From Williamsia sp. DF01-3 (GTDB lineage: Bacteria > Actinomycetota > Actinomycetes > Mycobacteriales > Mycobacteriaceae), in assembly GCF_023051145.1 (NCBI RefSeq), contig NZ_JALKFS010000005.1, positions 1,426,001 through 1,490,000 of the forward strand: a stretch of 64,000 nt of DNA. Reading direction: 5' to 3'. Position numbers and translations under genes: made by a program. Below the pieces are notes generated by a model, which had not been told where the DNA came from, made no database searches, and was given only the letters and a program-made list of their open reading frames with translations. How positions within the stretch are numbered: position 1 is the first letter of the stretch; each line of letters starts with the position of its first letter. Shown here piece after piece: positions 4,750-35,951 of this stretch.

Positions 4750-5660
4750 GCACCTCAACCATCGATGGCAGCAGCCCGGTCAAGGCCGGCAGTCTGTACA
4801 AGCCGGTCTCGCCCGGCCGGCGCCTCAAGAACCAGTCGGCCACGATCGTTTTCACCCTGTGCTTCGTGATCGCGATGATTCCCCTGGTGATGGTGCTCTT
4901 CACCGTCATCAGCAAGGGTTTCGAAGCCATCATCAAGCCGGAGTGGTGGTCGGGCGACCAGTTCCTGATCGGGCCGACTAGCTTCTCCGGCGGTGTCGGA
5001 CACGCGATCCTGGGCACGATCCTCACGGCATTGATCGCCGCCGTGATCGCCGTGCCGATCGGCATCATGGCCGCGATCATGTTGGTGGAGTACCCGAACA
5101 GCAAGCTGGTCAAGCCCACCTCGTTCATGGTGGACATCCTCGCCGGCGTCCCGTCGATCGTCGCGGCGCTGTTCATCTTCACCGTGTGGGTGACCACGTT
5201 CGGTCTGCCTCAGAGCGGCTTCGCGGTCAGCCTGGCACTTGTGCTGCTGATGCTCCCGGTGGTTGTCCGCTCCACCGAGGAGATGCTCAAGCTCGTCCCC
5301 GACGAGTTGCGTGAGGCCTCGTACGCGCTGGGCATCAGCAAGTCCAAGACCATCGTGAAAATTGTTGTCCCGACGGCGATGTCGGGAATCATCTCCGGAG
5401 TGTTCCTCGCCACCGCGCGAATCATGGGTGAGACCGCCCCGGTGCTGATCCTGGTGGGTTATACCGCCTCGGTGAACTACGACCCTTTCCAGAACAACAT
5501 GACATCGCTGCCGTTGTTCATCTACAACCAGTTGGCAAACCCCAATCCCGCCGGGGAATACCGCGTCTGGGGTGCAGCGCTGACCCTGGTCATCGTGATC
5601 GCGCTGGCGAATGCACTCGCGGCGCTGGCTTCTAAACTGCTCGCGCCGAAGACGAAATGA
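4746..5660 (+). CDS. pstA: Phosphate ABC transporter permease PstA
   Basis: The protein has 304 residues with six predicted membrane helices and the cytoplasmic EAA loop ([20 protein letters not shown]). It forms the channel with PstC. A long open frame on the opposite strand across pstA-pstB is a G+C-driven shadow. The next gene, pstB, starts 9 bp after the stop. Confidence 0.95.
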
Positions 5661-5669
5661 GATAAGGCA

Positions 5670-6446
5670 ATGGCAAAGAGACTCGACCTCAAAGATCTGA
5701 ACATCTACTACAGCGCCTTTCACGCCGTCAAGGACGTGAGCCTGGAAGTGCCGCCCCGCTGCGTCACGGCGTTCATCGGCCCTTCCGGCTGTGGTAAGTC
5801 CACCGTGCTGCGCACGCTCAACCGCATGCACGAGGTGACCCCCGGTGCTCGTGTCGAGGGCAAGGTCCTGCTCGACGGCGACGACATCTACGGCAAGGGC
5901 ATCGACCCGGTGTCGGTCCGCTCCACGATCGGCATGGTGTTCCAGCGCCCCAACCCGTTCCCGACGATGTCCATCAAGGACAACGTGGTGGCCGGTCTGC
6001 GCCTGCAGGGTGTGCGCGACAAGAAGGTGCTCGACGAGACCGCCGAGCGCAGCCTGCGCGGAGCGAACCTGTGGGAAGAGGTCAAGGACCGGCTGAACAA
6101 GCCCGGCGGTGGCCTCTCCGGTGGTCAGCAGCAGCGTCTGTGTATCGCGCGTGCGATCGCGGTGTCGCCTGACGTGCTCCTGATGGACGAGCCGTGTTCG
6201 GCACTCGACCCCATCTCGACGCTCGCCATCGAGGACCTGATCACCGAACTCAAGAAGGACTACACGGTGGTGATCGTGACGCACAACATGCAGCAGGCTG
6301 CCCGCGTCAGCGACCAGACCGCGTTCTTCAACCTGGCGGCCGTCGGTCAGCCCGGACAGCTGGTCGAGCTCAGTGACACCGAGACGATGTTCTCCAACCC
6401 GACGCAGAAGGCGACGGAAGACTACATCTCCGGCCGTTTCGGCTGA
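5670..6446 (+). CDS. pstB: Phosphate ABC transporter ATPase PstB
   Basis: The protein has 258 residues, full length for PstB. Walker A is GPSGCGKS near residue 35, the signature is LSGGQQQR near 148, and Walker B is [12 protein letters not shown] near 170, followed by the H-loop [12 protein letters not shown]. It energises phosphate import through PstCA and is thought to signal to the phosphate sensor together with PhoU. It is the last gene of the operon, followed within 25 bp by a strong terminator. Confidence 0.97.
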
Positions 6447-6466
6447 TCCTCGCAGGTACCCGAAGA

Positions 6467-6498
6467 AAACGGCCCCATGTTTCCGCATGGGGCCGTTT
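6467..6498 (+). terminator. Intrinsic terminator of pstSCAB
   Basis: A perfect 13-bp stem AAACGGCCCCATG / CATGGGGCCGTTT has a 6-base loop (6480-6485) and lies 20 bp after the pstB stop. The A-tract before and T-tract after the stem make it usable in either direction. It separates pst from the FHA gene. Confidence 0.88.
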
Positions 6499-6508
6499 CC
6501 TTGCCAGA

Positions 6509-7936
6509 ATGGTCCCCGTGACGGCAAAACATCCGGTGAGCGTGCTGCCTGGCCGCGGCATCGTGCTCCGCCGTGGACCGTCGCTCCTGCTCATCGACGC
6601 CGATCCGATCCGGAGCAGCGCAACGCTCACAGATCTGGCGCATCTCGCCACCGAGCCGCTCGAACAGGCCGGCCGCGTCGACGGGTCGCGGCTACGGTCG
6701 CTGACCAAGTGGTTGCTGGCCAACGAGGACAGCAGCCCGGATTTCGCGGTGGTCTCCACCGACCGGCACGGGGGTCTGGAGGTCTTCGTCTACGGTGCCG
6801 CGAGTGCGAGGATCTACGTCACCGAGTTCGCCACGCCGGAGGTCATCAGGGGAGCAGACGCCGGTTTCCTGGTACAGCGCAGCTATCCGAGCAGTGTGTT
6901 CGCGGTGGCCCTGACCATCGATGAGGACGACCCGCTGGGCGGTGGACCGATCGGATCGGGCGGTCTGGCCCCGTCCGAGATCTTCTCGCTCGAAAAAGGT
7001 GCGGCACCCGGCGCCGGCGTGGTGCTGTGGCCATCGGCCTCGCCTTCCACCGACAGTGCGGTATATGCCGTACCGGCAGTGACGCCGATGCCGTCGGCTG
7101 CCGACGAGCCCACAGGTGTCCCGGTGGTGGTGAGTCCCGAACTCGTCGACACCGCGATGGCGGTAACCGAAACGCCTTTGCTACCACCGGCACTCTCGGT
7201 GAGGCTGGACGACTTCGACAACCACACCGCAGCTGGGCGGGCACCGTTGCCGATCGTCGGTGGCCGGCGCAGAGCTGCCTCGGCTCGGCGGGGAATCGCC
7301 GAGCCGACACTGGTCCCGCCGCGTGACGTGGTCGGACCGGCCGATGCCGCACTGGCATCGGCGCCGACCGATGTCGCGAATCGTCCTGTGCGTCCATCTG
7401 ATCCGAAGGTCTCGGCGCGCGAACAACAGGTGCAGATCCAGGGTCTGCTGTGCCAGAACGGTCACATCAACGATCCGCGGTCACCGGTCTGTACTCGATG
7501 CGGTATTCGGATCAACCGGATGACGGGGGCGATGGTGCAGGGTCCGCGACCGCCGCTGGGGCTACTCGTCATCGACGACGGCACCACCTACGTGGTGGCC
7601 GGCGATCTGATGATCGGACGTGATCCCGAGCCGATGGTCGCAGCCAGGGGTGGTGTCGCAAGTGCGGGTATCGGACCACTGGACCCCATTCGCATCAACG
7701 ACACCTCGGGGTCGATGTCGCGCGCGCATTGTGAACTGCGACTGGTGGATTGGGATGTCCGGGTGGTGGATGCCGGCTCAGTGAACGGGACGTATGTCCG
7801 GCTGCCACGCGCGCCTGGCTGGATCACGTTGCGCCGCGGCCAGGAAGCGGTGTTGTATCCGGGATCCGAACTGCGGGTGGGAAGTCGCTCATTGCTGTTC
7901 GAGGCGCCGCACGGGAGGATCAGCGATGTTCGTTGA
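6509..7936 (+). CDS. FHA-domain protein with zinc ribbon
   Basis: The protein has 475 residues. The N-terminal about 300 residues are not assignable and include a Pro/Ala-rich linker. A treble-clef or zinc-ribbon segment follows (CQNGHINDPRSPVCTRCG, near 312-330). The C-terminus is an FHA phosphothreonine-binding domain, with IGRDPEP, the core SRAHCELRL and SVNGTYV. It overlaps the kinase gene behind it by 11 bp, so this is probably a kinase/phosphopeptide-reader pair. The ATG at 6509 is used here; a GTG at 6518 is an alternative. Confidence 0.75.
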   Translation: MVPVTAKHPVSVLPGRGIVLRRGPSLLLIDADPIRSSATLTDLAHLATEPLEQAGRVDGSRLRSLTKWLLANEDSSPDFAVVSTDRHGGLEVFVYGAASARIYVTEFATPEVIRGADAGFLVQRSYPSSVFAVALTIDEDDPLGGGPIGSGGLAPSEIFSLEKGAAPGAGVVLWPSASPSTDSAVYAVPAVTPMPSAADEPTGVPVVVSPELVDTAMAVTETPLLPPALSVRLDDFDNHTAAGRAPLPIVGGRRRAASARRGIAEPTLVPPRDVVGPADAALASAPTDVANRPVRPSDPKVSAREQQVQIQGLLCQNGHINDPRSPVCTRCGIRINRMTGAMVQGPRPPLGLLVIDDGTTYVVAGDLMIGRDPEPMVAARGGVASAGIGPLDPIRINDTSGSMSRAHCELRLVDWDVRVVDAGSVNGTYVRLPRAPGWITLRRGQEAVLYPGSELRVGSRSLLFEAPHGRISDVR

Positions 7937-8798
7937 CCCGACATCGGGTACCGACGCTCGCCGGCTGCCCCCGGCGATCGCCGACTACCGGACAGTCCGG
8001 GCGCTCGGTGCGGGCAGCCACGGTACGTGTTATCTGGCGGTGCCCCCGGCCCGGCTGCAGCTGAATGTCGAACACGTTGCGCTGAAGGTCTTTTCGAACC
8101 CCTGCGGTGAAGACGCCTTCCATCGCGGTGTGCTCGAACTCCGCAGTTTCGCCGCCGTACGGTCCCCACATCTGGTGCATCTGTACGAAGCGGCACTGGG
8201 TGACCTCTTCATGTACGCGATGGACTACTTCCCGGGTGGGTCGATGGCTGCCCCATCGATGCCGCTGCAGCGTGACCAGGCACTCGCCGTGCTCGAGTGC
8301 GCGGCCAGAGGGGCACACGACATGCACGAGGCCGGGTTGGTCCACTCCGACATCAAACCGGCAAACGTGTTGATTGCTGGAGGTGATCGCGCGGGTACCA
8401 CGGCATCACCAGCCGGAGTACTGTCCGATCTCGGTCTGGCCCGGGTGATCACCGCGGCGACCGCGGTCAGCGGCATCGGGTCGTCCGCGTCACTCGAATA
8501 TGCCGACCCCGACACCCTTGTCGGTCAAACACCCTCGCGTGCAACGGATATCTGGGCTCTGGGAGCGACGATCCACCGCACTCTGACCGGTGAAGGCCTC
8601 TACGGTGAACTGCCCGACATGCAGCCGCTGGTGGCGATCCGCACGGTGCAGTCCACCAAACCCAGGATCAGTACGACACTTTCACCGGCTGAACGCGACC
8701 TGGTGTCGGAATGCCTTGCCCCGCACAGCGATCGATTCAGGACGGCTGCAGAACTGGCCGACCGGATCTCCGAGGTGCGACGCACTGCACCCCGGTAG
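7926..8798 (+). CDS. Atypical soluble Ser/Thr protein kinase
   Basis: The protein has about 290 residues counted from the ATG at 7926, which overlaps the FHA gene. Kinase landmarks in order are the Gly loop LGAGSHGTCYLA, the Lys in VALKVF, the catalytic loop HSDIKPANVL and the metal loop SDLGLAR. HSD replaces HRD and DLG replaces DFG, so it is a non-RD kinase with an altered magnesium loop. No membrane helix is seen. It probably phosphorylates or partners with the upstream FHA protein. It converges on phoU with a 6-bp gap. Confidence 0.78.
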   Translation: MFVDPTSGTDARRLPPAIADYRTVRALGAGSHGTCYLAVPPARLQLNVEHVALKVFSNPCGEDAFHRGVLELRSFAAVRSPHLVHLYEAALGDLFMYAMDYFPGGSMAAPSMPLQRDQALAVLECAARGAHDMHEAGLVHSDIKPANVLIAGGDRAGTTASPAGVLSDLGLARVITAATAVSGIGSSASLEYADPDTLVGQTPSRATDIWALGATIHRTLTGEGLYGELPDMQPLVAIRTVQSTKPRISTTLSPAERDLVSECLAPHSDRFRTAAELADRISEVRRTAPR

Positions 8799-9563: not shown

Positions 9564-11633
9564 TCATGCGCAGGTTGTATCCCCGGCGTTCGTGACCGTG
9601 AGGTCGTTGGGCAACTCGTCTGTTCCCGACTCGCGTGGCAGTTCGGCAACGGTGATCTGGCTTCCGGCGAGAGCCGGCGACCCCGGGTTCCCGCTGTAGT
9701 CGCTGCCGACGATGACCTCGATACCCGACTGCACGGTGTTGTCCGCCTGGATGCTCGCCCCGGGGAACAACTGTGCAACGGTGGCCGCCGCAGCCTGTTG
9801 CCCTTCGCCGTACCTCACGACGGTGTCGGTGCGGTTCTCGGAGGCGTCGGCAACACCCTGGACGCCGAAACCCTGATTGGCCAGACTCTCGGCGATGCCG
9901 GTGGCAACTCCGGCGGAACCGGTGCCGTTGAGCACCCGCATGCTGACCGAATACGGATCCAGCGCGCTGACGGTGACGTCTGCCGGACGCGAGGGCGTCG
10001 AAGAAGTTGTTGTGCTGGTTGTTGTTCCGGCCGGTTTCTCTTCCTTCTCTCCGGGCAGCGGTTCGTCGTTGATGATCGCGTCGAAGATCGCACGGATGTC
10101 GGCATCACGGGGGATCTCGTTGCCCGAGCCGTCTTCGGCCGTGCCCGAGGTGGGGACGGTGAGGAAGGTGACGCGGCCGGCGTCGAGCCCTTGCATCGAC
10201 TGGGCCAATTGGAGAAGGTCGTCGGTGTTCACCTGATCGACGAAGCTGTTCTGGATGAAGGTGTCGACGATGCCGTTCAGCGTCGCGGGATTGGACAAGA
10301 CCTTGCTGGAGAGCGCTCCGCGCAGCAGCGACGAGAGGAACAGCTGCTGGCGTTTGATGCGCCCGTAGTCACCGTTGCCCTCGGTGTCGATGGTGCGGGC
10401 GCGTACGTAATTGAGGGCAGCTTTACCGCGGATCTTCTGCTTACCGGGCTTGGTGAGGATGGGGCCCAGCTCGAAATCGTTGAGCGGGACCGGCGAGCAG
10501 ACCTCGACACCACCGATCTTGTTCACGACCTTCTCGAATCCCGAGAAGTCCATCGCGATGAAGTGGTTGATGTTCAGGCCGCTGATGGCGGTGAGTGTGT
10601 CGACGATGCACTTGGGGCCGCCGTCGCCATAGGCGGTGTTGAGCTTGGCGCCCGTCTCGGCGGGCACGATCTGGCCGGTGTATTCGCCCTTGTCGTTGTC
10701 CCACGTTGTGCACTCGGGACGGTTGATCTGCAGGTCCCGCGGGAAACTCACCGCGACCACGCGGCTGCGGTCGGCCGGGATGTTCACGAGGATCACCGTG
10801 TCCGACCTGGCACCGCCGGCGTCCTCGGTGGTACCGGCGCCGATCTGCCCGTTCTTTCCCGACCGGGTGTCGGTGCCGACGATCAGGTAGGTTTCGTCGC
10901 CGGTCTGCAGTTCTTTGCCGCGGATCTCGCTGTTGTCCGGGTTGACGGCATCGACGATGTTCCAGTTGCCGTCTTTGACCTTCTGGTAGCCCCATACCGC
11001 GCCCGTGCCCAGGAGTGTCATGACGCAGGCGAGAGCGAGGAGGACTCGGCCACCCATCCGGGCATTCCTGGTCAGCGCGGCTCGATCGCGGCCCTTGGGC
11101 GTCGCGGCATGTCTGCGGCCGCGGGCCGTACCCGCGCCGGATTCGGGAACCACCGCCGGCTGAACACGGTCGGCCACGCTGTCGTGCGACGGGTCCGGAT
11201 CCGGCTCGGGATCGGCGGAGAGGTAGACGGGTGGGTCGTCCTTGGCGGCCGGGATGACCTCTGTCTGGGAGTCGTCGTCCCGTTGCGGAGGGTCGGTGCG
11301 CGCGAAGGGATGGCTCGGCGTGCCAGACGGGGAGGGCGGCCCACCGGCCGGACCGCGGCCGCCGCGTGGGTTGGGATCGGACGGGGGACCCGGATCCACC
11401 GCACGGCTGATGGTCTCGGTAGGGGCATCGGCGGGGCGGACGCGGCGTGGGCGCGGCGGCGGAACCGAAGGTCCGTCGGACGGAGGTGTCGAGGAACGGT
11501 CTGTCGAGGATCGGGGTTCGCCGGCCGGGGGCTGCGACGGCCCGTCGGAGGCGGCTCGAGACGAAGGGGATGGTGCGGCGCGTCCGGACGAGCCGGCGGC
11601 ATTCATCCGATTGAGTAGTTCCTGAACCGTCAA
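9564..11633 (-). CDS. LCP (LytR-CpsA-Psr) cell-wall ligase with LytR_C domain
   Basis: The protein has 689 residues and a TTG start. The N-terminus holds TVQELLNRMN, then a Pro/Ser/Asp-rich cytoplasmic region of about 190 residues, then one membrane helix (ALACVMTLLGTGAVWGY). The extracellular LCP domain contains LIVGTDTRSG, the Arg-rich VAVSFPRDLQI and the RARTIDTEGNGDYGRIKRQQ region. The C-terminal LytR_C domain is near 570-680. In mycolata this family joins arabinogalactan to peptidoglycan. It corresponds in position to Rv0822c. The small frame upstream ends inside its start codon. Confidence 0.88.
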   Translation of the reverse strand: MTVQELLNRMNAAGSSGRAAPSPSSRAASDGPSQPPAGEPRSSTDRSSTPPSDGPSVPPPRPRRVRPADAPTETISRAVDPGPPSDPNPRGGRGPAGGPPSPSGTPSHPFARTDPPQRDDDSQTEVIPAAKDDPPVYLSADPEPDPDPSHDSVADRVQPAVVPESGAGTARGRRHAATPKGRDRAALTRNARMGGRVLLALACVMTLLGTGAVWGYQKVKDGNWNIVDAVNPDNSEIRGKELQTGDETYLIVGTDTRSGKNGQIGAGTTEDAGGARSDTVILVNIPADRSRVVAVSFPRDLQINRPECTTWDNDKGEYTGQIVPAETGAKLNTAYGDGGPKCIVDTLTAISGLNINHFIAMDFSGFEKVVNKIGGVEVCSPVPLNDFELGPILTKPGKQKIRGKAALNYVRARTIDTEGNGDYGRIKRQQLFLSSLLRGALSSKVLSNPATLNGIVDTFIQNSFVDQVNTDDLLQLAQSMQGLDAGRVTFLTVPTSGTAEDGSGNEIPRDADIRAIFDAIINDEPLPGEKEEKPAGTTTSTTTSSTPSRPADVTVSALDPYSVSMRVLNGTGSAGVATGIAESLANQGFGVQGVADASENRTDTVVRYGEGQQAAAATVAQLFPGASIQADNTVQSGIEVIVGSDYSGNPGSPALAGSQITVAELPRESGTDELPNDLTVTNAGDTTCA

Positions 11634-11770
11634 TCGGCCCGCGGCGTCACGAGGCAGTTCCCGAGCGGGGGTTCACGGAGTACCTCATCCGATGGCGCGC
11701 CGAGCTGGCGGCGAATCAGATCGCGGCGTTCCTCGGGTGTGCGTCCCCGGAGCTCGTCGTCGCTGCTCAC
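11630..11770 (-). CDS. Putative 46-residue protein translationally coupled to the LCP gene
   Basis: The frame starts with a GTG at 11770, with GAAGGAAC about ten bases upstream, and encodes a charged, helical peptide (start SSDDELRGRTPEERRDLIRR). Its TGA overlaps the LCP TTG start as TTGA (11630-11633), the classic geometry of termination-reinitiation. It could be a real small protein or a leader that sets LCP translation. A competing ATG four bases upstream reads a poor frame. I recognise no family. Confidence 0.45.
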   Translation of the reverse strand: MSSDDELRGRTPEERRDLIRRQLGAPSDEVLREPPLGNCLVTPRAD

Positions 11771-30994: not shown

Positions 30995-31981
30995 ATGCGC
31001 TCGTCGCCGACGATTCAATTGACTGCGATGATCTGCAGTGTGCTGGTGGCATCCACCGGCCTGTTCGCATGTTCGAGCGATTCGCAATGCACGGTCGACA
31101 CCACGTCTTTCGACAATTCTGCGGACACATGTCTGCGGTTCGGCGTCGGTACTCCCGGCGGTTTGTCGGCCGGTGAAGAGGTGGCCGCGGTGGCCCGCCT
31201 GGTCGGTGAACAGCCCAGCATCGTAGTGGCCTTCTCCGACTTCACAGCGGCTCCTCCGATCGGTGGTCTCGACGTGGTGCGCGGCGCAGGCGCCGACCCG
31301 ATCGTGACCTGGGAACCCTGGAAGTATCTCGGCGGCGACAGCTACGACCGGTCTGCTTTCACGATGGATTCCATCATCTCGGGAGCCCACGACGACTACC
31401 TGTATCGATGGGCCGACGAACTGGCGGCCTGGGGGCAGCCGGTATACCTGCGCTTCGCCCACGAACCGAATGGCACCTGGTATCCGTGGAGCCCGGCCGG
31501 TGGCACCTCTCCACAAACCTATGTACAGGCGTGGCGCCATGTGCGAAACATCTTCGCGACGAAGAACGTGCAGAACGTCCGATGGATATGGGCGCCCAAT
31601 GTTGTTCTCGCCGGCGAACAGTTGGCGGACTGGTATCCAGGTGACGATGTGGTCGACGTCATCGGGGTGGATGGATACAACTGGGGCACCTCGATCCCCG
31701 ATGGAAAGTGGACCTCGCCAGAGGACCTGTTCGGCGAATCTTTGGACCAGATCCGAGACGTCGCCGACAAACCCATTCTGGTCACCGAGGTGGGCAGCGC
31801 GGAGCAAGGTGGTTCCAAGCCCGACTGGATCAAAGACCTCGTCGCCTATCTGGAAGGCGCAGCGGACGTTTCAGGATTTGTGTGGTTCGACTACAACAAA
31901 GAGGCCGACTGGAGGATCGAAAGTTCTCCCGGATCAGCAGCGGCGATGGCCGAGGCTCTGCAGAAAGCGTTGAATCGATGA
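30995..31981 (+). CDS. GH26-type glycoside hydrolase lipoprotein
   Basis: The protein has 328 residues. A lipoprotein signal is present (TAMICSVLVASTGLFAC, Cys near 26). The catalytic acid/base is the Glu in RFAHEPNGTWYPWSP, the GH26 hallmark, and the nucleophile is probably the Glu in ILVTEVGSAEQGG. GH26 enzymes cleave beta-mannans or mixed beta-glucans. Placed at the head of a glycosyltransferase operon, it may trim or release the polymer outside the membrane. The stop overlaps the next gene (ATGA). Confidence 0.82.
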   Translation: MRSSPTIQLTAMICSVLVASTGLFACSSDSQCTVDTTSFDNSADTCLRFGVGTPGGLSAGEEVAAVARLVGEQPSIVVAFSDFTAAPPIGGLDVVRGAGADPIVTWEPWKYLGGDSYDRSAFTMDSIISGAHDDYLYRWADELAAWGQPVYLRFAHEPNGTWYPWSPAGGTSPQTYVQAWRHVRNIFATKNVQNVRWIWAPNVVLAGEQLADWYPGDDVVDVIGVDGYNWGTSIPDGKWTSPEDLFGESLDQIRDVADKPILVTEVGSAEQGGSKPDWIKDLVAYLEGAADVSGFVWFDYNKEADWRIESSPGSAAAMAEALQKALNR

Positions 31982-33222
31982 GTATCGACACCGAGATCGC
32001 CGAGATCCAGCTGAAACTTCCCCCAGAGGACGAAGCCAAGCGGCTGCGTTCACTCGATCAACTCCAGATACTCGATTCGCCACCGGAGGATCGCTTCGAA
32101 AGGGTCACCCGGATGGCCCGGCTCATCTTCGACGTGCCGATGGCGTCGGTTGCGCTTCTCGATCGGGACCGGTTGTGGTTCAAGATGGTTGAAGGATTGC
32201 CGCTGACTCAGGTGCCGAGGGCCGAGACTGTGTGTCAGACAACGGTGGCACGTACGTATACCCAGCCGGCCGACCCGGCGCTCATCGTCGATGACCTCGA
32301 ACGGGTACCGGAGTTCGCCGCCCTTCCCGGCGTCGGTGGCGACGGTGGCGTGCGGTTTTATGCGGGATATCCGCTGTACGGTCCGGGCCACCAACCGGTC
32401 GGGACGTTCTGCGTCTATGACACGAAGCCGCGAAGTTTCGACGAGTCTCAGTTGGCGACATTCCGTGAACTCGCTGCGTGGGCCCAGCGGGAGCTCGAGC
32501 GCGCCGACGACCTCGATCGGGCCGCCGAGGTGCAACGTCAGTTGCTGCCACCGCCACTCGAAGGCGTCGACGGCTACTCGGTCGTCTCGATGTGCAAACC
32601 GGCCTATGCGGTCGGTGGCGACTTCTACGATCACTACCTGCTCGACGGCGGTGCCATGTTCACGGTCGCCGATGTGATGGGTAAGGGTTTGGGTGCGGCG
32701 ATCCTCACGGCAAGTGTGCGGGCGGCCCTGCGGGGAGCGTCCCAGGCTCTCGACGACGTGAACCCTGGGATCGGTCCCGACGAGGCAGTGACAATGGTTG
32801 CCGGTCACCTCGACCGCGACCTCGCCGAGACCGAGAGCTTCGTGACGCTGTTCCACGGCCGGTTGACCGCATCGACCGGTCAGGTCGAGTACATCGACGC
32901 CGGGCACGGCCTTGCACTGGTCGCCCGGGCCGATGGCAGCGTGGAGTCGTTGCCCGGATGTGGTCTGCCCCTCGGTGTGCTGCCCCGGGATTCGTGGAAA
33001 TCCGACACCACGACTCTGCTACCGGGGGACACCCTTGTGATCGTCTCTGACGGGCTTCTCGACCTCCTGTCCGAAGACAGTGAGACCGAGACGGTGCAGG
33101 AATTCGTTCGGCAACACCCCGACTCCCGTTCGCTGTGTGCCGCGGTGACGGCCCTGGCCAACGCGAGCGCGCCGCTCGACGACGTCACGGTGGTGGCGGT
33201 GCGACGGGACGATGCCGGATGA
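31978..33222 (+). CDS. GAF-SpoIIE PP2C-type serine phosphatase
   Basis: The protein has 414 residues. The N-terminal GAF domain (about 25-170) includes VPMASVALLDRDRLWFK and GVRFYAGYPLYGPGHQPVGTF. A short coiled segment (RADDLDRAAEVQRQLLPPPL) leads into the SpoIIE/RsbU phosphatase domain, with AVGGDFYDHYLL, VADVMGKGLGAA and LVIVSDGLLDLL supplying the metal-binding Asp residues. RsbU-like phosphatases dephosphorylate a STAS antagonist; a STAS gene lies two genes downstream. Start and stop both overlap neighbours (ATGA). Confidence 0.88.
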   Translation: MSIDTEIAEIQLKLPPEDEAKRLRSLDQLQILDSPPEDRFERVTRMARLIFDVPMASVALLDRDRLWFKMVEGLPLTQVPRAETVCQTTVARTYTQPADPALIVDDLERVPEFAALPGVGGDGGVRFYAGYPLYGPGHQPVGTFCVYDTKPRSFDESQLATFRELAAWAQRELERADDLDRAAEVQRQLLPPPLEGVDGYSVVSMCKPAYAVGGDFYDHYLLDGGAMFTVADVMGKGLGAAILTASVRAALRGASQALDDVNPGIGPDEAVTMVAGHLDRDLAETESFVTLFHGRLTASTGQVEYIDAGHGLALVARADGSVESLPGCGLPLGVLPRDSWKSDTTTLLPGDTLVIVSDGLLDLLSEDSETETVQEFVRQHPDSRSLCAAVTALANASAPLDDVTVVAVRRDDAG

Positions 33223-35198
33223 CGCATCGCCGCGTCGCGACCGAACCCGACCTCGGTACCACTCCATCACCCTGGTTGCGCCTGCTGATCGTTGTGACCG
33301 CCATCCTCGGCATCAACTATGTGGTGTGGCGGTGGCTGGCCTCGATCAACTGGGAGGCGTGGTGGATCGCCGTCCCGCTGGTGGTCGCCGAAACGTACAG
33401 CCTGATCGACTCGTTGCTGTTCGGTCTGACGATGTGGCGCCTGCGCAGGCGCGGCGATCCGGGCGACCCGCCCGAGGGGGCAACGGTCGACGTCTTCATC
33501 ACCACCTACAACGAGCCGATCGAACTGGTGATGGACACGGCAAAAGCCGCTCTGCGCATCACCTATCCCCACACCACGTGGATTCTGGATGACGGCGACC
33601 GACCCGAGCTGGCGCACGAAGCCAAGGAGCACGGAATCGGTTATCTGACCCGCACCGAGAGCTGGGTCGACAAACCACGACATGCCAAGGCCGGCAACCT
33701 CAACAACGCGCTGTTGCAGACCGACGGCGAGTTCATCCTCATCCTCGACGCGGACCAGATCCCCGAGCCGCAGATCCTCGACCGAACCCTCGGCTACTTC
33801 AAGGACGAGAAGATGGCGTTGGTGCAGACGCCGCAGTACTTCGTCAACGTGCCGCCGAACGATCCGCTCGGCAGCCAGGCGCCCCTGTTCTACGGGCCGA
33901 TTCAGCAGGGCAAAGACGGTTGGAATGCCGCATTCTTCTGCGGCTCCAACGCGGTGTTGCGTCGCGAGGCCCTGATGCAACTGGGCATCACCGGATATGT
34001 GCGCGCCATCGAAGAGGGCATCGAAGAATCGCTGCGCGCAGCCAAGGCGGTCCTGAAGAAGACCCGCAAACAGGTGCGGAACGACAACCCCGAGGCGATC
34101 GTCGCGCTGGACGCGGTGGACGAGGCCGTTCGGATCGCCCGGGCCGACCTGAAGGCGAAGAAGCCCCTCGCCGACGTCACCTACGACTTCCAACAGCGGG
34201 TGGACGCGGCAGCGAGGGGGCTGGTCGAGTCCGACATGGAGATGATGCGGGCCGACCTCGAAGCGATCGCCGCACTCAACGAACTGGCCGAGCAGGAGTC
34301 GGGTGCTGCGCCTCTCGATGAAGACGCCTTCGCAGCCTTGGCCGGCCGTGATTGGTCACCACTCGGCGCCCTGGAGTCCATTCGGGCGATGATCCGCGCG
34401 GTGGATGTCGGGCGCGACGACGAAGCGCAACCGATGCTGCCGCTGGCGACGATCTCGGTCACCGAAGACATGGCCACGTGCATGCGACTCCACGGGATGG
34501 GGTGGCGGTCGGCATATCACGACGAGGTGCTCGCGCTCGGACTCGCACCCGAGGACGCCAAGACGATGATCACTCAGCGACTTCGATGGGCGCAGGGCAC
34601 GATTCAGGTGATGCTGCGGGAGAATCCGCTGATACAAAAAGGTTTGAGCATCCCACAGAGGCTCATGTACTGGGCCACGATGTGGAGCTACCTCGCGGGG
34701 TTCGCGGCCGTCGCATACATTGCCGCACCGGCGGTTTATCTGATCCTCGGCATACTCCCGGTGCAGGCGTTGAGCTTCGACTTCTTCGTCCGGCTGATCC
34801 CGTTCCTGGTGTTGAATCAGTTGTTGTTCTTCATCATCGGGCGTGGTAAGTCCACCTGGCGCGGCCAGCAGTACAGCCTGGCGTTGTTCCCGGTGTGGAT
34901 CAAGTCCTGCACTACGGCTTTTCGTAATGTGTACTTCAAACGCCCACTCGGCTTCGCGGTGACGCCGAAGACCCGGCAGGACCAGGAGGCGGTGCCGTGG
35001 CACCTCATCAGGCCCCAGCTCGTCGCCATGACCGTGTTGGTGGTGGCGTCCCTGATCGGGATCGTGCAGCTCTACCGTGGTTCGATCTCGGTACTCGGCG
35101 TCAGTGTGAATCTCTTCTGGGTGCTGTTCGACCTCGTGGTACTCAGTGTTGTGATCCAAGCGGTCCGCTATCGCGGGTCGACCACAGAAGGAGAATGA
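33219..35198 (+). CDS. Cellulose-synthase-like GT2 glycosyltransferase with a large helical insertion
   Basis: The protein has 659 residues. Two membrane helices (about 20-70) precede the GT-A domain, with VDVFITTYNEP, DDGDRPEL, DAD in LILDADQIPEP, SVTEDM (TED) near 412 and QRLRWAQG (QxxRW) near 453, followed by at least four more helices. This is the set of a processive beta-glycan synthase. Between SNAVLRRE (near 245) and SVTEDM lies about 155 residues, mostly charged helix, where BcsA-like enzymes have roughly 20. No PilZ domain follows, so c-di-GMP control is unlikely. Confidence 0.87.
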   Translation: MTHRRVATEPDLGTTPSPWLRLLIVVTAILGINYVVWRWLASINWEAWWIAVPLVVAETYSLIDSLLFGLTMWRLRRRGDPGDPPEGATVDVFITTYNEPIELVMDTAKAALRITYPHTTWILDDGDRPELAHEAKEHGIGYLTRTESWVDKPRHAKAGNLNNALLQTDGEFILILDADQIPEPQILDRTLGYFKDEKMALVQTPQYFVNVPPNDPLGSQAPLFYGPIQQGKDGWNAAFFCGSNAVLRREALMQLGITGYVRAIEEGIEESLRAAKAVLKKTRKQVRNDNPEAIVALDAVDEAVRIARADLKAKKPLADVTYDFQQRVDAAARGLVESDMEMMRADLEAIAALNELAEQESGAAPLDEDAFAALAGRDWSPLGALESIRAMIRAVDVGRDDEAQPMLPLATISVTEDMATCMRLHGMGWRSAYHDEVLALGLAPEDAKTMITQRLRWAQGTIQVMLRENPLIQKGLSIPQRLMYWATMWSYLAGFAAVAYIAAPAVYLILGILPVQALSFDFFVRLIPFLVLNQLLFFIIGRGKSTWRGQQYSLALFPVWIKSCTTAFRNVYFKRPLGFAVTPKTRQDQEAVPWHLIRPQLVAMTVLVVASLIGIVQLYRGSISVLGVSVNLFWVLFDLVVLSVVIQAVRYRGSTTEGE

Positions 35199-35536
35199 TG
35201 ACCAGCTACGAAACGCGCACCACCACTGAGGGTGCCGTGGTACTCCGGCCGGAGGGTCGGCTCAACATGGTCGCTGCCCCTGCGATGCGCGAGCAGTTGC
35301 ACAAGCTCGTGGAGTCTGGATCGACCAAGATCGTCATCGACTTGTCGGCAACCGATTTCATCGACTCGTCCGGTCTCGGTGCGCTCATCTCCGGTTTGAA
35401 GGTGGCTCGGCAGGCCGGCGGTGATCTCCGGATCGCAGCCCCATCTTCCCAGGTCGAGTCGGTCTTGTCGCTGACCAACCTCAACCGCGTGCTGCGCTCG
35501 CACCCGTCGGCGGACAGTGCATTCGATGCCGACTGA
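35198..35536 (+). CDS. STAS-domain anti-sigma-factor antagonist (SpoIIAA/RsbV-like)
   Basis: The protein has 112 residues. The STAS core VIDLSATDFIDSSGLGALIS carries the Ser that is phosphorylated in RsbV-type switches. AAGGAG lies four bases before the ATG at 35198; another ATG three bases earlier overlaps the GT2 stop. It is the expected substrate of the SpoIIE phosphatase and of the RsbW-like kinase next door, completing a partner-switch module. Confidence 0.88.
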   Translation: MTSYETRTTTEGAVVLRPEGRLNMVAAPAMREQLHKLVESGSTKIVIDLSATDFIDSSGLGALISGLKVARQAGGDLRIAAPSSQVESVLSLTNLNRVLRSHPSADSAFDAD

Positions 35537-35951
35537 CAATTCGCCCGGCGTGCGGGTGCTCGAGGAGTTCGCTCAACCGGACACGGTGGAACGGGTGCAT
35601 CAGCTGTTGTCCGATCTGCTGACCGCCGAGCCGGTGGACGACATGGACGCAATGCAGTTCGAGTTGGCGCTGGCAGAGATCGCGGCCAACATCATCGAGC
35701 ACGCCCAGAAGACCGATGGGGGGCAGGTATCTGTTCGCCTCGAACTGGAGGTCCGACCGGACAGCATTCACGCGAGGTTCTCCGATGACGGGGAGCAAGT
35801 CCGTGTCGACCTCAAAACGGTCGAGCTACCCGATGAGCTCTCCGAGCGCGGCCGGGGACTGGCCATCGCTCTCACCGTCCTCGACGAGCTGTCGTATCGG
35901 CGGGCAGACCACCGGAATCACTGGACGCTGGTTCGCAACCGGACCCTCTGA
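35526..35951 (+). CDS. RsbW-like serine kinase / anti-sigma HATPase
   Basis: The protein has 141 residues. It has a GHKL ATP-binding fold with the N box ELALAEIAANIIEHAQK and the G motif SDDGEQVR followed by LSERGRGLAIALTVLDEL. It overlaps the STAS gene by 11 bp. RsbW-type kinases phosphorylate the STAS partner and hold a target protein when the antagonist is phosphorylated. No sigma factor gene is present, so the target could be the GT2 enzyme itself. Confidence 0.85.
   Translation: MPTDNSPGVRVLEEFAQPDTVERVHQLLSDLLTAEPVDDMDAMQFELALAEIAANIIEHAQKTDGGQVSVRLELEVRPDSIHARFSDDGEQVRVDLKTVELPDELSERGRGLAIALTVLDELSYRRADHRNHWTLVRNRTL

Follow-up and report, generated by a model that had tools for sequence, protein, structure and literature searches.

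Cellulose and its related glucans have a central place in biofilms, and in the textbook account their synthases are switched by cyclic diguanosine monophosphate (c-di-GMP). Partner switches whose output is not a sigma factor are already known as the Sia, Hsb and Bgr systems, the last of which ties the switch to β-glucan through c-di-GMP. In SiaABCD of Pseudomonas aeruginosa, a PP2C phosphatase and a kinase act together with the STAS-like protein SiaC, which, when unphosphorylated, binds an enzyme encoded by that operon and activates it (PMC8457831, PMC7647112; papers identified by PubMed Central number are cited here from excerpts of their text), and in Sinorhizobium meliloti the BgrSTUWV partner switch, together with BgsBA, leads to the synthesis of a mixed-linkage β-glucan (PMC7647112). 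Here, a five-gene operon is analyzed that joins a partner switch to a BcsA-type glycosyltransferase of family 2 (GT2); it lies at 30995..35951 on the forward strand of a 64,000-nucleotide stretch (the window) of the 5.59 Mb genome of Williamsia sp. DF01-3. The switch tracks the synthase, whose gene is the one most constantly found beside it, and it appears reasonably probable that this dedicated switch acts on the synthase post-translationally, most likely through direct binding of the STAS protein (or of the kinase), thereby replacing control by c-di-GMP and PilZ.

Genes of the operon

All five genes are on the forward strand. The first (30995..31981; PF02156, 56.7 bits) encodes a lichenase-like GH26 lipoprotein, a putative exported β-glucanase, and is followed by that of a GAF-SpoIIE (PP2C-type) phosphatase (31978..33222; PF01590 and PF07228), the presumed sensor and activator of the switch, whose GAF sensor domain was located by the Pfam domain scan at 32083..32487. 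The third gene (33219..35198; Cellulose_synt/GT2 families) codes for the BcsA-type processive GT2 synthase without a PilZ domain, and the fourth (35198..35536) for a STAS protein of the anti-anti-sigma type with a DSSG phosphorylation motif (S57/S58), scoring 71.8 bits with PF01740 and above the cut-off of TIGR00377. The last one (35526..35951; PF13581, 65.2 bits) encodes a predicted RsbW-type HATPase_c_2 serine kinase. Consecutive genes meet in ATGA at 31978 and 33219, in AATGATG at 35194-35200, where the STAS frame has a further in-frame ATG at 35195, and in an 11-base overlap at 35526-35536. Re-reading of the sequence and the domain search bear out in full the five open reading frames (ORFs), the families and the overlapping junctions reported in an earlier reading of the same DNA (the original prediction).

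Co-occurrence of the switch and the synthase in Actinomycetota

Conservation of the grouping was evaluated on the best 80 of 389 GT2 relatives, a main set that includes near-copies and some organisms twice. The positive loci are not independent, near-copy removal leaving 52 of 80 loci with all four genes (synthase, phosphatase, STAS protein and kinase). The 80 closest relatives and four loci from an unselected sample make up 84 loci whose GT2 carries a characteristic insertion, and they were compared with 34 insertion-less cellulose-synthase-like GT2 loci from 28 genomes of that same sample, two of which are short (7.7 and 3.1 kb). STAS matches above 100 bits were present in 83/84 of the insertion-bearing loci, kinase matches above 80 bits in 82/84, and SpoIIE matches above 100 bits in 80/84, and none of the 34 insertion-less loci reached any of these scores. 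The weak exceptions among the latter are a STAS gene alone in L140 (63 bits) and a kinase match alone in L152 (20 bits). Within the main set the order GT2-STAS-kinase on the same strand is kept in 77/80 loci, with SpoIIE upstream on that strand in 74/80. Thus, the conserved co-occurrence on which the original prediction had staked itself beforehand is found, and it extends well beyond the Mycobacteriales.

Genome-wide sampling gave a concurring picture. A GT2 match at 1e-20 was obtained in 33 of 396 genomes sampled from the phylum, five of them having the insertion type; the same five score 130-187 bits with the STAS profile, the next genome reaching 107, and 114-189 bits with the kinase profile, the next one reaching 59. 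Twelve of 298 genomes of the order (three of them shared with the phylum sample) carry the GT2 in 13 copies, all 13 with STAS and kinase genes within 1.5 kb. Some loci depart from the common arrangement: at L045 the 13 kb with the GT2 contain no switch, and a SpoIIE-STAS-kinase trio is found on another contig of the same genome (L240), while the trio of L241 is transcribed divergently from its GT2. In L242, the STAS gene is directly followed by a single open frame of 656 residues (9685-11765) that combines kinase, receiver and SpoIIE phosphatase domains.

Since the switch proteins are of the RsbV/RsbW type, the output might be the classical one, with the RsbW-type protein serving as an anti-sigma factor and the switch freeing a distant sigma factor that transcribes the operon or a wider regulon. 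The 21 Sigma70_r2 matches of the host genome make a distant partner possible; on the other side, none of these 21 falls in the window, as the original prediction had also reported. When the host sigma factor that is linked to a STAS/kinase pair was used as query, it matched in 0/84 switch loci (a single query at E 1e-4, which other sigma types may escape), and its gene has its own STAS and HATPase genes directly downstream (L177). Moreover, the kinase subfamily was found only in GT2-bearing genomes (5/396), although sigma factors under partner-switch control are widespread in Actinomycetota. Considering all these observations, a sigma-factor output is regarded as unlikely. The accompanying generalization, that modules of this type normally control sigma factors, is too narrow, since Sia, Hsb and Bgr act on diguanylate cyclases (PMC8457831, PMC7647112).

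The synthase and its insertion

The GT2 aligns with solved cellulose synthases (BcsA) at an E-value of 6.5e-68 in two stretches, residues 22-256 and 409-646, which are split by residues 257-408. These 152 residues, encoded at 33987..34442 (forward strand), are inserted after the FFCGSNAVLRREAL motif and ahead of the TED motif. Across 56 GT2 rows, D125, D177/D179, D417 and QRLRW (453-457) are invariant, and so are F579, V581, T582 and K584 of the gating-loop motif FAVTPKTRQ (34953..34979, forward strand), which corresponds to the FxVTxK motif of β-glucan synthases named in PMC6821405. The protein nevertheless stays below the cut-off of the CelA equivalog model TIGR03030 (360.7 vs 699.1 bits).

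The insertion measures 149-159 residues in 80/80 actinobacterial loci and shows a mean column identity of 57% over 25 rows, including an invariant R-x-WSPLGA stretch. A Pfam search with the insertion (E up to 1) returned no family above its cut-off; the best match, TraB_PrgY_gumN, reached 18.8 bits for a cut-off of 26.8 and is not believed to reflect its identity. Lying immediately ahead of the TED motif within the catalytic domain, the insertion would, on the known topology of BcsA, face the cytosol.

PilZ domains are absent from the switch-linked GT2s scanned (0/56, and 0/12 in a plasmid set described below) and present in 5/8 control GT2s, and the PilZ search of the host genome gave no match at E 0.001, in line with the original prediction of a synthase devoid of that domain. 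The C-terminal tails differ as well: switch-linked GT2s end 69-117 residues past the gating motif (39/40 have the motif), while eight BcsA/BgsA-type controls extend for 181-290 residues. For insertion-less actinobacterial GT2s the corresponding range is 47 to 613 residues (24/34 with the motif).

These features bear on the possibility that the STAS protein activates a distant diguanylate cyclase, as Bgr and Sia do, c-di-GMP then activating the synthase via a non-PilZ site. The pairs SiaC-SiaD, HsbA-HsbD and BgrV-BgrR are precedents for such an output (PMC8457831, PMC7647112), the mixed-linkage glucan synthase BgsA of S. meliloti is c-di-GMP dependent without a PilZ motif (PMC6821405), and the host has 10 GGDEF matches. 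Nonetheless, no GGDEF is found in the window, one host GGDEF protein used as query matched in 0/84 switch loci, and the difference in tail length indicates that the c-di-GMP-binding C-terminal region of BcsA/BgsA appears to be missing. Control through a distant cyclase is therefore considered quite unlikely. A second GGDEF query, the S. meliloti cyclase, matched 67 switch loci, mostly in the phosphatase frame; this was attributed to the shared GAF domain, and the result was not used.

The switch proteins

Residues expected for function are largely kept in the three switch proteins. D56, S57, S58 and G59 of the STAS protein (DSSG) are present in 80/80 rows, E51, N55, G109 and G111 of the kinase (N box and G2 box) in 77/77, and D215, D232, D358 and D402 of SpoIIE, which we take to be the metal-site residues, in 53/53. 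The G1-box Asp column of the kinase alignment is D in just 54/77 rows, and the kinase scores far under the cut-offs of the RsbW equivalog models, though above that of PF13581. Judged by their motifs, the switch proteins look active. Mean column identity amounts to 71% for the GT2, 68% for the STAS protein and 49% for the kinase (on different row sets); conservation of the STAS protein near that of the GT2, and well above that of the kinase, favours the STAS protein as the part that would touch the synthase.

The sensor part of the phosphatase is more variable. It is a GAF domain in the window and in L042 (Nocardioides), L056 (Clavibacter) and L054, and a receiver domain replaces it in L044 and L073 (Arthrobacter) as well as in all three proteobacterial members that were scanned. 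A cyclase near the presumed bgsA of S. meliloti (L190, 3319-4344) matches the profile of the window's phosphatase with 105 bits, apparently via GAF, and possibly represents the same sensor with another output. In two loci (L068, 7092-7799; L088, 7112-7738) SpoIIE was not found, a frame of 208-235 residues being located upstream of the GT2; that of L068 matched no Pfam family.

The GH26 protein and the polymer

Endoglucanase H, a lichenase acting on β-1,3-1,4-glucan, is the best solved relative of the GH26 protein (E 1.9e-42; 2.9e-10 for the best mannanase), and E157 and E265, which we assume to be the catalytic glutamates, are kept in 34/34 rows. This closeness to a lichenase points to a β-glucan, cellulose or mixed-linkage, as the probable polymer of the operon, and the GH16 genes found in two proteobacterial clusters fit the idea.

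GH26 is a loose member of the grouping. A match at E 0.001 is found in the fetched DNA of 49/80 loci, leading the genes in 30, following them in 14 and occupying another position or the opposite strand in 5, while the remaining 31 gave no match; only 37/84 exceed 40 bits, many of the following ones being weak. GH26 genes also stand near 10/34 switch-less GT2s (L120, L126, L127, L134, L143, L146, L148-L150, L152), so that GH26 follows the polymer rather than the switch. Compared with the nearest Williamsia locus (L009), the GT2 is 98% identical and GH26 only 79%, the hydrolase diverging much faster than the synthase. Elsewhere in the host, a possible second glucan/kinase locus (L178, C5:978000-990000) has, at 4918-8000, another GH26 frame that overlaps the frame of an orphan RsbW-type HATPase, with a divergent GGDEF gene next to it and no STAS match.

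The N-terminus of GH26 shows a signal peptide and a lipobox-like stretch (LFAC-SS), and the STAS protein and the kinase have no such start. If exported as this start suggests, GH26 would be out of reach of cytosolic proteins, and its control by the switch is unlikely. In the original prediction, the STAS/RsbW pair acted directly on either the synthase or its release enzyme; conserved co-occurrence, the tracking of the synthase and the lack of a linked sigma match speak for the first option, and the second is abandoned because GH26 should act outside the cell.

Occurrence beyond the phylum

A tblastn search of 72,556 plasmids yielded GT2 relatives in Paracoccus, other Rhodobacterales, Sphingobium, Vibrio, Salmonella, Pantoea, Chimaeribacter and Nostoc, and 12 of the 18 records were examined. 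SpoIIE is present in 12/12 of these loci, STAS in 11/12 within the fetched DNA, the twelfth (L183) having it just past its end, and the kinase in 11/12 by profile, with the twelfth (L186) recognized by its annotation. Gene order varies among them, the switch being divergent from the GT2 in several and ~7 kb away in L183, and switch genes of L186 are separated by an insertion sequence. On the Nostoc plasmid, GH26 is also present, SpoIIE is matched by a frame of 238 residues on the opposite strand, and a transposase-like frame, so named from its translation, precedes the kinase. Plasmid clusters of PilZ-less GT2 and switch genes from alpha- and gammaproteobacteria (L175, L179-L184, L186-L188) mostly also hold DUF3131 and OpgC/acyltransferase genes.

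Nine control loci at ordinary BcsA/BgsA-type genes, two of them alike, gave no STAS or kinase match to the profiles; in one of them (L196) a short gene annotated as histidine kinase lies ~3 kb upstream. In a tree of 82 GT2s over 481 columns, used instead of a 232-column one that gave Nostoc a very long branch, all 40 switch-linked rows are set apart from the others by one branch (support 99/99), with a single label change, some long branches meeting among the rows that are not switch-linked. For two of the 40 (L045 and L183), the STAS gene was outside the DNA first fetched and was found elsewhere in both records.

Surroundings of the operon

The flanking genes (NUDIX, haem-oxygenase-like, PHP and MMPL) are mostly not retained beyond the nearest relatives, and among the other neighboring ORFs of the window, leaving aside frames that overlap the five genes, none has relatives in more than a few of the 80 loci. 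The five genes thus stay together while their flanks change, so that their grouping exceeds chance. The host GT2 is 92-99% identical to those of four Williamsia loci and 96% to that of one assembly labelled Kitasatospora. A promoter and terminator scan of the operon region gave nothing above chance.

Neighborhood alone is no proof of contact, and the switch might act on another step of polymer production, such as substrate supply or an export helper, or the genes might merely be co-transcribed for a shared occasion; the proteobacterial clusters do hold further genes (DUF3131, OpgC/acyltransferase, GH16). Against this, no ORF family beyond the five is present in more than 28/81 actinobacterial loci, so that no other constant target is encoded nearby, and the trio is retained apart from the GT2 in L240. 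An action of this kind is judged very unlikely. Members of the family that does reach 28/81 loci lie in part antisense to the five genes and in part ~2 kb off.

A proposed mechanism for the control of the synthase

From these sequences we infer a direct contact of the STAS protein or the kinase with the GT2, as well as the phosphorylation reactions, the product and the sign of control. In the scheme proposed, the GT2 would polymerize and extrude a β-glucan chain, which the exported GH26 would trim or release. Phosphorylation of the STAS protein by the kinase on the DSSG serine would set the system off; once the GAF domain has read a signal, the SpoIIE phosphatase would strip the phosphate from the STAS protein and set it on. 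Unphosphorylated STAS would then bind and activate the synthase in the manner of SiaC and SiaD, which is somewhat the better of two options, the less favored, if still serious, one being that it pulls the kinase off the synthase. Either way, the switch would stand in for the c-di-GMP/PilZ control of an ordinary BcsA.

Taken more broadly, there is about an even chance that a whole subfamily of β-glucan synthases in Actinomycetota, Pseudomonadota and Cyanobacteriota has swapped c-di-GMP/PilZ for direct allosteric control by a partner switch, with the STAS protein or the kinase docking next to the finger helix, on a cytosolic module specific to the lineage, and so gating the synthase.

Several observations weigh against these proposals. 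The insertion varies by lineage, with ~150 residues in Actinomycetota, ~45 at the same place in Proteobacteria and ~100 at another place in Nostoc, and since proteobacterial and Nostoc members carry different insertions, it is not a universal docking site. Short tails (47-91 residues) also occur in 6/24 of the insertion-less, switch-less GT2s with the gating motif, so that a missing tail alone does not imply a switch. A distance-matrix test of the insertion on 52 loci gave partial r values of 0.52/0.40/0.49 with the STAS protein, the kinase and the SpoIIE control, respectively, hence no specificity, and the same co-occurrence would be expected if the switch controlled only the transcription of this operon. 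Finally, cross-phylum STAS scores (56-85 bits) are no higher than those of unrelated STAS proteins from actinobacteria, which reach 82-107 bits with a like profile; joint descent of the STAS proteins across phyla was for this reason dropped, and that of switch and GT2 together is unsupported.

Should the proposal of direct control be true, a switch best known for the control of gene expression may here turn a polymer-making enzyme on and off directly, in a pairing that recurs in three phyla. It would amount to a second, c-di-GMP-independent mode of control for glucan synthases in soil actinobacteria, roseobacters, Pantoea and a cyanobacterium.

Comparison with known systems

As the original prediction had supposed, no described system of this make-up came to light, no paper on the pairing being found in the open-licence full text of PubMed Central or, for the broader searches, among the 20 papers listed. 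The Williamsia GT2 shares with BcsA, besides the overall alignment given above, the D,D,D,QxxRW motifs and the FxVTxK gating loop, and it differs from BcsA in the lack of PilZ, the extra insertion and the score below the CelA cut-off. Plant CesA proteins possess a class-specific region, an extra cytosolic module between the second and third Asp motifs. The Williamsia insertion appears to occupy the same stretch of the catalytic domain, and it differs in matching no Pfam family above cut-off.

We know of no BcsA-type GT2 in the Syp system of Vibrio fischeri, which is otherwise a close parallel. Its STAS protein SypA is active when unphosphorylated and is needed for polysaccharide-dependent biofilm through a mechanism called unknown, and SypE, which the 656-residue frame of L242 resembles, is a response regulator whose kinase and phosphatase outputs oppose each other (PMC4517449). 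The SypA target is not named in the excerpt of that paper, and a review excerpt speaks of transcription; were the proposal of direct synthase control true, it would make testable what STAS proteins such as SypA touch. In Burkholderia glumae, loss of the SpoIIE-HATPase protein BspP speeds pellicle formation and raises bcsB expression, yet this effect accompanies raised c-di-GMP, and the excerpt mentions no linked GT2 (PMC7444824). A review of STAS-only proteins reports a STAS-glycosyltransferase fusion in Anabaena (all4160), its excerpt mentioning no operon of the present type.

The closest precedents are thus those presented at the outset. The target of Sia is a diguanylate cyclase, whereas the Williamsia operon has no linked GGDEF match and its linked enzyme is a polymer synthase. 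Bgr, for its part, works via the cyclase BgrR and c-di-GMP; the S. meliloti synthase gene (L190, L195) has no STAS or kinase match within ~6 kb, and BgsA, unlike the short-tailed Williamsia GT2, keeps a C-terminal stretch of ~100 residues (PMC6821405). Set beside them, the Williamsia system reads as a shortened, Bgr-like version without the cyclase.

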